From assembly GCF_003324485.1 (NCBI RefSeq), contig NZ_QODK01000002.1:434001-498000 (forward strand): a stretch of DNA of 64,000 nt. Reading direction: 5' to 3'. The notes below the pieces were generated by a model. That model searched no databases. It was not told the origin of the DNA and saw only the letters and a list, made by a program, of their open reading frames with translations. The translations under genes were made by a program, and so were the position numbers. Each line of letters starts with the position of its first letter. The stretch's first letter is position 1. Positions 36,252-62,671 of this stretch are shown in pieces. The DNA comes from Cohaesibacter intestini (GTDB lineage: Bacteria > Pseudomonadota > Alphaproteobacteria > Rhizobiales > Cohaesibacteraceae).

Positions 36252-36928
36252 GCATTCGGAACTGCTTGCATTCGAGACGACAGGCAACCGGACTGGATGA
36301 TTGAAAGAACCAGAAGCTGAGAGGCAGGCTGCCCCCTCTCTTCAGACGTGCCGCATGTTCCACCGGCGTTAGGCCAGACGCACTGAACACCCACCTGAAC
36401 ACCCAACAGCAAGCCAGGCGGTCAGCACAGACCTTTGCATCCCGTATGGGCGCAAAGGCGACAGCGAAAGGTGGAAAGGATCGGGGAAAGTCCCGTTAAT
36501 AAAAGGATGGCCGGTTCAGATGCAGACCACTTGAGGAGGCCACTCTTGCTGCGCCTGAACCGACCAAGCCCCACGGTCCCAGGAGATGCGGCGGACCTGA
36601 GTGTTCCGTAGGGGATAATTCGTGGGTGGATTGAGTTCGCGAGCGCATACAGTTGAACTGCAAAGCATACACAGACGTCCCCACTTCCATCATGCTAGTC
36701 CAGCGTAACAAAAATATTCAGGATTTCAACGAATTGTTTAAACATTCAATAAGAATACCCGAAATTCACCAACAATTAACCTTAACATGCCTGTGAACAG
36801 CACAAAGTCGCACCCAAAGGGCATGGAAGCGACACTTCTATTGGCGATTTTATGAAGACAGAGGCTTAATATCCCCAGAAAGCCGGCTCAACCGCCAAAT
36901 TGGCGAGTCGTGAAACCCTCTCAACTTG
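36252..36928. other. Long structured intergenic region
   Basis: About 680 bp with no credible protein. The part at 36430-36600 is dense in stable hairpins, listed separately, and could encode a small RNA on either strand. The part at 36720-36790 is AT-rich with TTAACCTTAAC. A CGCCAA/TTGGCG inverted repeat lies at 36893-36905, just after the pleD stop, and may help end pleD transcription. Confidence 0.55.
36432..36598. ncRNA. Candidate structured small RNA, strand uncertain
   Basis: Three stems follow one another. Stem 1: CCTTTGC/GCAAAGG plus CCC/GGG, 36432-36458. Stem 2: CGGTTCAG-GCAG/CTGC-CTGAACCG, 36512-36525 with 36549-36562, 12 paired bases. Stem 3: GGTCC/GGACC, 36575-36597. Read on the minus strand the loop of stem 2 exposes CCTCCTC, the anti-Shine-Dalgarno motif known in several alphaproteobacterial small RNAs. 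I could not match a named RNA family. Confidence 0.4.
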
Positions 36929-58286: not shown

Positions 58287-58610
58287 ATGGCCATGGACCC
58301 AACCATCGAAGCACTGGCAGATGAAGCGGACAATGTCGCAAGGCTGCTGAAATTACTGGGCAATGCCAACCGCTTGCGTATTCTGTGCCAGTTGGTTGAC
58401 GGACCGGACAAGTCTGTCAACTCTCTCGCGGACACCCTCAATATCAGCCAAAGTGCCTTATCCCAACATCTGGCAAAAATGCGCGAAGATGGATTGATCA
58501 AGGGCAGTCGCGACGCCCAGACCATTTACTATTCCATATCCGACCCCAACGCTGAACAATTGCTCGGAGTGCTGAAAGATCTGTACTGCGCCTCAGATAC
58601 CGGCCAGTGA
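58287..58610 (+). CDS. ArsR-family regulator of the SqrR/BigR type
   Basis: 107 residues. The winged helix is LKLLGNANRLRILCQLVDGP, SVNSLADTLNISQSALSQHLAKMREDGLIK, then TIYYSISDP. It lacks the metal-binding Cys cluster of ArsR. Instead it has Cys34 and Cys101, 67 residues apart, close to the two cysteines (66 apart) with which SqrR and BigR sense persulfide. A rhodanese gene follows after 37 bp in the same direction, as in bigR operons. So it probably releases its operator when sulfane sulfur is present. The redox role is inferred. Confidence 0.85.
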   Translation: MAMDPTIEALADEADNVARLLKLLGNANRLRILCQLVDGPDKSVNSLADTLNISQSALSQHLAKMREDGLIKGSRDAQTIYYSISDPNAEQLLGVLKDLYCASDTGQ

Positions 58611-58647: not shown

Positions 58648-59049
58648 ATGGCAAAAAAGCAGATCGTCCAACAGATCAACCATGATGAAGCCAAAAAGCT
58701 CCTTGATGAAGGCGCAGTGTTGATTGATGTGCGTGAATCCATGGAGCTGATGGGCAAGAAGGTCCCTTCCGCCCTGCATCACCCGCTCTCAAGCCTCAAA
58801 GGCCCCATCGACACCAAAGGCGCTCCTGCCGCAATATTCTTTTGCGCGTCCGGCGCCCGGACCAATGGCTATGCCCGCCAATTGGCAGGCCTTGTTGACT
58901 GCGACGCCTACATGCTGACCGGTGGCATTCATGCCATTTCGCGGATGGGCGTGCAGACTGAGGGCGGTGGCGGCATGTTCAAGTTGTTCGGCCTGGCGGT
59001 TGCTGTGGTAGCAATCGGCTGGATGGCTGGATGGATTCCCGGCCTCTAA
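58648..59049 (+). CDS. Rhodanese with C-terminal membrane anchor
   Basis: 133 residues. A single rhodanese domain: AVLIDVRESMELMGKKVPSALHHPLSSL, then the catalytic loop FFCASGARTNGYA with Cys66. The last 20 residues (LFGLAVAVVAIGWMAGWIPGL) form a membrane helix. With the regulator before it, it should transfer sulfane sulfur at the inner face of the membrane. No sulfide-quinone reductase or persulfide dioxygenase is in the window. Confidence 0.9.
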   Translation: MAKKQIVQQINHDEAKKLLDEGAVLIDVRESMELMGKKVPSALHHPLSSLKGPIDTKGAPAAIFFCASGARTNGYARQLAGLVDCDAYMLTGGIHAISRMGVQTEGGGGMFKLFGLAVAVVAIGWMAGWIPGL

Positions 59050-61026: not shown

Positions 61027-61428
61027 CTAGTCCTCAACCGCATCCACGGCCCCACCTGCCTCTTTCCACGCCCCAAAGCCACCGGACATATGCGCGACGG
61101 GTTTCAGGCCCATGGCTTGCATTTGCTGGGCCGCCAAAGCACTGCGCCAACCACCGGCACAGAAAAAGACAAATTTTTTGTCTTCGGCAAAGATTGGCTT
61201 GTGATAGGGGCTGGTTGGGCAAACCCAGAATTCGAGCATGCCGCGCGGCGCATGGAGCGCGCCGGGCATCCGCCCTTCCCTGTCCAACTCGCGAATGTCG
61301 CGGATATCGACAAAGACATGATCCTCACGGTCGAGCAAGGTCATGGCCTCTGCTATGTCAATCACATCGATTTCGGCTTCGGCGGCCGCGATCAGTTGCT
61401 TATAGGTTACGGTGATCTCTTGTGCCAC
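61027..61428 (-). CDS. Rhodanese-like sulfurtransferase, soluble
   Basis: 133 residues. DIAEAMTLLDREDHVFVDIRDIREL is the start of the domain; the active loop KFVFFCAGGWRSALAA holds Cys90. An N-terminal segment (MAQEITVTYKQLIAAAEAEI) resembles the part that precedes the domain in many thiosulfate sulfurtransferases. The loop CAGGWRSA differs from that of the rhodanese at 58648, so the two are not a recent duplicate. Monocistronic. Confidence 0.9.
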   Translation of the reverse strand: MAQEITVTYKQLIAAAEAEIDVIDIAEAMTLLDREDHVFVDIRDIRELDREGRMPGALHAPRGMLEFWVCPTSPYHKPIFAEDKKFVFFCAGGWRSALAAQQMQAMGLKPVAHMSGGFGAWKEAGGAVDAVED

Positions 61429-61559: not shown

Positions 61560-61646
61560 TTAGCTAACAGCGACAACCGCTGTCTCGAATGCTCCGAAGA
61601 AATACACAATGGCCAAAACAGCGCCTAGCGCCAATACGGCTTTCAT
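61560..61646 (-). CDS. 28-residue single-span membrane peptide
   Basis: It reads MKAVLALGAVLAIVYFFGAF and ends ETAVVAVS, then TAA. A hydrophobic segment follows one Lys, as in many small membrane proteins. GGGG lies about 8 bases upstream of the ATG and a strong terminator 28 bases after the stop, while both neighbours are further away; so it looks like an independent transcript. Too short for most gene finders. The product could instead be a leftover signal peptide. I do not recognise it. Confidence 0.5.
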   Translation of the reverse strand: MKAVLALGAVLAIVYFFGAFETAVVAVS

Positions 61647-61960
61647 TGTGACACCCCAACAAGAAACGTCGACTTCTTTGTCCATGTCGCCTCAGCTGTC
61701 ACTTGACTATGTTGGTACCGCTCGCCCTCAGGCTGCGGTGGAGTGAGCCTGTGTTAATCTCTTGGAAAGGAAATAGCAATCATTAAGGCATGCATCAGAC
61801 GCAAACCTCCTATGGACTTCAGATTTCAACGATGAATCAATAAGCTAGGGACTCACAAAAGTGTGTGTAATGTGTCAGAATAGTGACGAACCGAACCTGT
61901 AACGTTACGGCAATTCAGCGCTAAATGCGACTTGAACTCAGACTCTAGGGATTTGTACTA
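61647..61960. other. 314-bp divergent region, peptide gene and DUF599 gene
   Basis: No further gene. A 10-bp palindrome GTAACGTTAC lies at 61899-61908, 53 bases upstream of the DUF599 start. Confidence 0.5.
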
Positions 61961-62671
61961 ATGGAACCATTCACCCTCATCGACCTGATCGGACTGGGTT
62001 GGTATGTCGCTTTCTGGGTGGGCTTTTCCTATCTCGCCGATCACTCACCTTTGCGCAAACGAACCTTGTCGAGCATGATGAATGCCCATCGCCGCCGATG
62101 GATGCAAACCATGGCACGCCGCAAACTGCGCATGGTCGACACCGCTATTATCAGTGGCCTGCAAAATGGGACAGCCTTTTTCGCTTCCACCTCGCTGCTG
62201 GCGATCGGCGCAGGCTTTGCCTTGTTGAACTCGACCGAATTGGCCCTGCAGATCACCCGCGATTTACCGCTTCCGGTTGAGACGACCCGCACCCTTTGGG
62301 AAATCAAGGCCCTGATCCTGATCTGCATCTATGTCTATGCCTTCTTCAAATTCGGCTGGGCCTACCGTTTGTTCAATTACACCTCGATCCTGATTGGAGC
62401 CCTCCCCTATCATGAGGATTTTGAACCGGACCATGTGATGGTCGATGAACAGGAGATGGTCGTGGCCATCGAACAGGTTGCCGAAATGAATGCGCTCGCC
62501 GGGCGCCACTTCAATCTGGGCCTGCGCGCTTTTTTCTTCTCGCTCGCATTGTTTGGCTGGTTCATTGATCCCCTGTTGCTGATGGCAGCAACAACCTTTG
62601 TCACAGGAGTGCTCATTCGACGACAGTTTTTCTCCCGTTCCAACAAGATGGCCCATCACCTCTTGCCATGA
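61961..62671 (+). CDS. DUF599 family membrane protein
   Basis: 236 residues. The family pattern is at the start: WYVAFWVGFSYLADHSPLRKRTLSSMMNAHRRRWM. About four hydrophobic segments follow (FASTSLLAIGAGFALLNS, ALILICIYVYAFFKFGWAY, FFFSLALFGWF and LLLMAATTFVTGVL). The FGWAYRLFNYTSILIGALP stretch is the second conserved block. No function is known for the family. Confidence 0.86.
   Translation: MEPFTLIDLIGLGWYVAFWVGFSYLADHSPLRKRTLSSMMNAHRRRWMQTMARRKLRMVDTAIISGLQNGTAFFASTSLLAIGAGFALLNSTELALQITRDLPLPVETTRTLWEIKALILICIYVYAFFKFGWAYRLFNYTSILIGALPYHEDFEPDHVMVDEQEMVVAIEQVAEMNALAGRHFNLGLRAFFFSLALFGWFIDPLLLMAATTFVTGVLIRRQFFSRSNKMAHHLLP

Follow-up and report, generated by a model that had tools for sequence, protein, structure and literature searches.

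CydX, KdpF, AcrZ and CcoM are small single-helix membrane proteins that act on a known complex. In the present study, we analysed a window of 64,000 nucleotides from Cohaesibacter intestini (contig NZ_QODK01000002.1, positions 434,001 to 498,000), and found a small gene whose predicted product resembles these proteins. As they are generally described, they share with it a length of less than about 50 residues, one membrane helix and a tendency to be overlooked by annotation. Unlike them, the small gene has no constant partner gene, and its product has no family match in Pfam, NCBIfam or PHROGs.

Another protein of this type is known from Sinorhizobium meliloti. According to Hadjeras et al. (2023, PMC10117765), SEP16 is a small protein confirmed by Western blotting, it has a predicted membrane helix, it was found mostly in the membrane/ribosome pellet, and its sORF is conserved in Hyphomicrobiales. 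Compared by these descriptions, SEP16 and the product of the small gene are alike in small size, predicted membrane helix and conservation in Hyphomicrobiales. SEP16 could be the S. meliloti homologue of the protein described here.

Reading frame and coding evidence

The small gene occupies positions 61560 to 61685 on the minus strand (41 codons plus stop). Its translation from the ATG at 61685 is MDKEVDVSCWGVTMKAVLALGAVLAIVYFFGAFETAVVAVS (41 residues), a predicted single-helix membrane protein with a Ser-Cys-Trp motif. The preliminary description, which named no strand, had proposed a 28-residue membrane peptide with a ribosome site before its start. Such an ATG-to-stop frame does run from 61646 to 61560 on the minus strand, and it contains the one hydrophobic stretch ascribed to it. 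However, it represents only codons 14-41 and the stop of the small gene, and the conserved start is the ATG at 61685, 13 codons 5′ of 61646. The gene also has a ribosome site (GAGG), but this is placed at 61690-61693 on the minus strand, 4 bases 5′ of the ATG at 61685, and this spacing is found in 18 of the 18 Cohaesibacter genomes. An internal start at 61646, giving 28 residues, was ruled out, as Met14 is present in 15 of the 99 distinct peptides of the family, and 12 of these 15 are from Cohaesibacter. Met1 is present in all 99, partly by construction, since for 40 members a script set the start to the Met closest to the beginning of the match, at this point or 5′ of it. The match itself opened at an ATG in 31 of these 40 members and in all 80 loci from named genomes. 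We conclude that this is a real small membrane-protein gene of 41 and not 28 residues, with its translation predicted from the sequence. The case also shows that an internal Met taken as the start can misread a small gene.

There are 97 ORFs of at least 25 amino acids overlapping the last 6 kb of the window, and thus a short ORF by itself means little. We searched 61 genomes, that of the window and those of 60 relatives, and found the frame in all 18 Cohaesibacter genomes with E values of 4.2e-16 or better. All 18 copies are 126 bases long, begin with the same ATG and are free of indels. Variable sites numbered 12, 7 and 34 at the first, second and third codon positions (of 42 each, stop codon included), and pN/pS over all pairs of the 18 copies was 0.146. 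Furthermore, each of the other five reading frames is interrupted by stops in some genomes of the genus. It had been suggested beforehand that relatives should carry the same peptide with synonymous changes, and this is what we found: the frame is under purifying selection and the change is mostly synonymous. The small gene is almost certainly protein-coding, and would be expressed. Outside the genus, 10 of the 43 genomes of this search matched at E ≤ 10, and five of these matches (genomes G060, G019, G031, G040 and G018) were accepted as diverged copies. In its own genome the gene is present as a single copy, the next match having an E value of 0.36.

In addition, a 13-codon leader frame, MHALMIAISFPRD, lies 5′ of the small gene. 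It was rejected as a coding candidate, as only 6 of the 18 genus genomes retain an open frame that begins with ATG, GTG or TTG and runs for 11-15 codons. In the remaining Cohaesibacter genomes a stop lies inside the frame or the start is missing. The same stretch overlaps the promoter-like block described below.

Peptide conservation and species distribution

The family comparison covered 138 loci, in which some genomes are counted twice, and 99 distinct peptides of 31-50 residues, which reduce this redundancy. We found that the top conserved columns after Met1 are Ser8 (92 of the 99 distinct peptides), Cys9 (94) and Trp10 (94). In five peptides (L078, L079, L080, L083 and L090), Tyr-Leu replaces Cys-Trp and the rest is kept; four of these five have no Cys at all in the first 14 residues. 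A hydrophobic stretch is present in all 99 peptides (lowest best 17-residue Kyte-Doolittle mean, 1.82), and AlphaFold2 predicted a single helix over residues 4-40 (mean pLDDT 76, pTM 0.41). Together, the model and the hydrophobicity of the 99 peptides indicate a single hydrophobic helix of sufficient length to span the membrane in one pass. An excess of K/R was found on the N side in 83 of the 99 peptides and on the C side in 3, and the positive-inside rule allows such a bias to be read as topology. The product is very probably a membrane microprotein, a localisation predicted from these features. Within the helix, no conserved helical face was detected (permutation p 0.21-0.62), and this gives no help to a helix-packing model.

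The window's protein has no match in Pfam or NCBIfam, and a PDB sequence search gave no match. When 32 members were compared with Pfam, NCBIfam and PHROGs, only isolated weak matches were obtained, each limited to a single member (best E 0.0035), and they assign the family to no known one. The preliminary description had expected standard annotation to miss this gene. This was borne out on pSymB of S. meliloti Ak57 (CP090106.1), where the annotation tables, which may be incomplete, show no gene at the position of the 33-residue homologue. The homologue is flanked there by a DUF599 gene and by L-serine ammonia-lyase. Two other records that we examined have almost no annotation. In the literature search, the peptide KSCWGVT or SCWGVT was not found, and the match for DUF599 together with "small protein" concerned iron homeostasis in Arabidopsis.

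A profile of 32 diverse members found diverged copies in 86 of the 397 sampled genomes of the order (E ≤ 1e-4). With a narrower profile (A3), 385 genomes sampled across the class yielded a match in the window's own genome only. Absences in these large samples are soft, because no more than 18 candidates are scored in each genome. The best 80 of 163 stretches confirmed in named genomes include Sinorhizobium, Ensifer, Shinella, Neorhizobium, Agrobacterium, Rhizobium and Mesorhizobium, as well as Stappia, Pannonibacter, Roseibium, Pseudovibrio, Nitratireductor, Chelativorans, Methylobrevis, Aurantimonas and Falsochrobactrum. The gene is also carried by Cohaesibacter celericrescens (NZ_PKUQ01000016.1). 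Two carriers, G179 (locus L075) and G375, have genomes of only 1.5-1.6 Mb and retain the gene; at locus L075, a serine dehydratase gene lies 3′ of it on the same strand.

Neighbouring genes and flanking signals

In the window, the small gene has a divergent upstream neighbour encoding a DUF599 membrane protein (61961-62671, plus strand; Pfam PF04654) and a downstream neighbour encoding a rhodanese-domain protein (61027-61428, minus strand; Pfam PF00581), both considered here as context. Of the 138 loci, 105 have a divergent DUF599 upstream, 37 a same-strand rhodanese downstream, 58 a neighbouring serine dehydratase and 12 a neighbouring DUF1489. At least one of these four neighbours is present at 132 loci, and 6 have none. 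Thus, the small gene stays while its neighbours change, and no neighbour is constant. A constant genomic link to a known complex, which would point to an accessory subunit, was not found among the 138 loci and 397 genomes. DUF599 was also considered as an obligate partner, and this is unsupported, as by hand count it is present in 59 of the 86 carriers versus 251 of the 397 genomes overall. In 20 genomes in which no copy had turned up before, a profile search of the region 5′ of DUF599 (189 bases in one case) gave nothing convincing (best E 0.63).

On the downstream side of the small gene, rhodanese is absent within 1.5 kb in 9 of the 18 Cohaesibacter genomes. The window also holds an ArsR-type regulator (58287-58610, plus strand) followed by a second rhodanese-domain protein (58648-59049, plus strand), and relatives of these two genes adjoin the small gene, but on the other strand, in the nine Cohaesibacter genomes without the first rhodanese there. 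A rhodanese is adjacent in the Tyr-Leu members L078, L079 and L090.

A promoter-like motif was identified at 61753-61788 on the minus strand (TTGCTA at 61779-61774, TTAAC at 61757-61753) by a motif search over the 99 members, using 200 bases 5′ of the start and one forced site per member. TTGC(G), followed about 17 bases on by TAA, was found at -138 to -71 in 98 of the 99 members. The motif likelihood was 841 versus 120 and 127 in two sets of mononucleotide shuffles. The model with the value of 841 was evaluated on the sequences used to train it and came from 40 starts with 60 rounds each, versus 12 starts with 40 rounds each for the shuffled controls. A fair test of the motif requires held-out members. 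After training on 40 members, 44 of the 59 others exceeded the 95th percentile of shuffles, and 56 of the 59 sites fell at -135 to -75 (38% expected). The window's own copy had a weak score in this test, with a site 10 bases off. The TTGC and TAA of the motif are invariant in all 18 Cohaesibacter genomes.

The preliminary description had also given the gene its own terminator, and we confirmed a hairpin with a T-run that starts 29 bases past the stop (61530-61501, minus strand; AAAAAAGCGTGGGGCAGCCCGCGCTTTTTT); the tail behind it is T-rich as far as about 61493. A folding energy of -22.9 kcal/mol (z -2.63) was calculated for the 72-nt stretch. A simple terminator scanner did not list this hairpin, whose stem is extended by A and T arms. 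A terminator-like hairpin was found 3′ of the stop in 63 of the 99 distinct members, at a median of 29 bases, with a mean of 1.0 and at most 2 in mononucleotide shuffles, and the same test recognised none in the other 36.

Among 87 upstream regions from members outside Cohaesibacter, 10 contain an exact TTAA-N7-TTAA box and 47 contain one with at most one mismatch. The other spacings among the 16 tested (0-15) gave 0-1 exact boxes and 6-19 within one mismatch. These boxes sit near the promoter-like motif. The sequence resembles the CtrA consensus of S. meliloti, TAA-N7-TTAAC, as given in PMC3616915. In Cohaesibacter, the box is exact in 1 of 18 genomes and within one mismatch in 8 of 18, which is not above other spacings. 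Thus, CtrA regulation is only a lead for the window's gene.

Proposed role and alternatives

We propose that the small gene encodes an N-in single-pass inner-membrane microprotein of Hyphomicrobiales, which is made from a monocistronic unit and docks on a larger membrane protein. This reading, in which expression, topology and partner binding are all predicted, has in our estimate a probability of about 0.55. The unit would comprise the putative promoter (61788-61753), a leader of about 60 nt, the 41 codons and the terminator (61530-61501). Residues from about 15 to 33 would span the membrane, and the N terminus would be cytosolic. This short N-terminal part and Ser-Cys-Trp would sit at the membrane surface on the cytosolic side, and the short tail would be periplasmic. 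The protein would dock on a larger inner-membrane protein and stabilise or tune it, like other small single-helix proteins; for this docking mechanism taken by itself we see even odds. As conservation is centred on Ser-Cys-Trp and no helix face is conserved, the main contact is placed at the cytosolic membrane surface, and Ser-Cys-Trp would make this contact with the partner.

The conserved Cys may also suggest a role in sulfur or thiol handling, in which it and the neighbouring rhodanese would carry out persulfide or thiol chemistry at the membrane face. Its presence in 94 of the 99 peptides favours a thiol role, and at some of the 37 loci with a downstream rhodanese no terminator is recognised between the two genes (e.g., L074, L086 and L088). 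In addition, serine dehydratase is an Fe-S enzyme in this class, and its frequent presence as a neighbour (58 of 138 loci) hints at Fe-S chemistry. However, the Cys is kept in the nine Cohaesibacter genomes without an adjoining rhodanese, and the Tyr-Leu variants L078 and L079, which lack this Cys, still adjoin one. The rhodanese losses argue against a strict link to sulfur or Fe-S chemistry, and we consider such a role unlikely. The size, the one hydrophobic helix and a short transcript with its own terminator would also fit a type I toxin, that is, a small hydrophobic peptide damaging the membrane once freed from antisense RNA. Yet the gene is single copy, its position is fixed (132 of the 138 loci share at least one neighbour) and it is under purifying selection, which makes a toxin very unlikely.

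Alternatively, the main product might be the RNA, either a small regulatory RNA that holds a frame by chance or a dual-function RNA. The predicted transcript is short, and the leader block is conserved in some lineages. However, third codon positions carry most of the change, and different genera have kept the frame. No Rfam family was found at the locus at gathering scores, and a search of L001, L104, L162 and L167 at E 0.1 gave one irrelevant weak match. An RNA as the main product is hardly credible to us.

The docking microprotein would be of a known kind. The family itself is a conserved protein family across an order with model symbionts, for which the libraries searched hold no model. 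As its start, motif, promoter-like block and terminator are conserved, the family can be tested directly in laboratory S. meliloti. A more far-reaching reading is that of an order-wide inner-membrane microprotein which in several lineages is controlled by CtrA, a regulator of the cell cycle. Its Ser-Cys-Trp, placed at the cytosolic membrane surface, would then be a new site for docking or thiol chemistry on an important complex of the envelope or of respiration in rhizobia and related bacteria; we regard this reading as improbable.

Elsewhere in the window, positions 36504-36616 on the minus strand matched Rfam RF02500 (Atu_C6, described as EcpR1) over its full length, with 85.5 bits versus a gathering score of 60.
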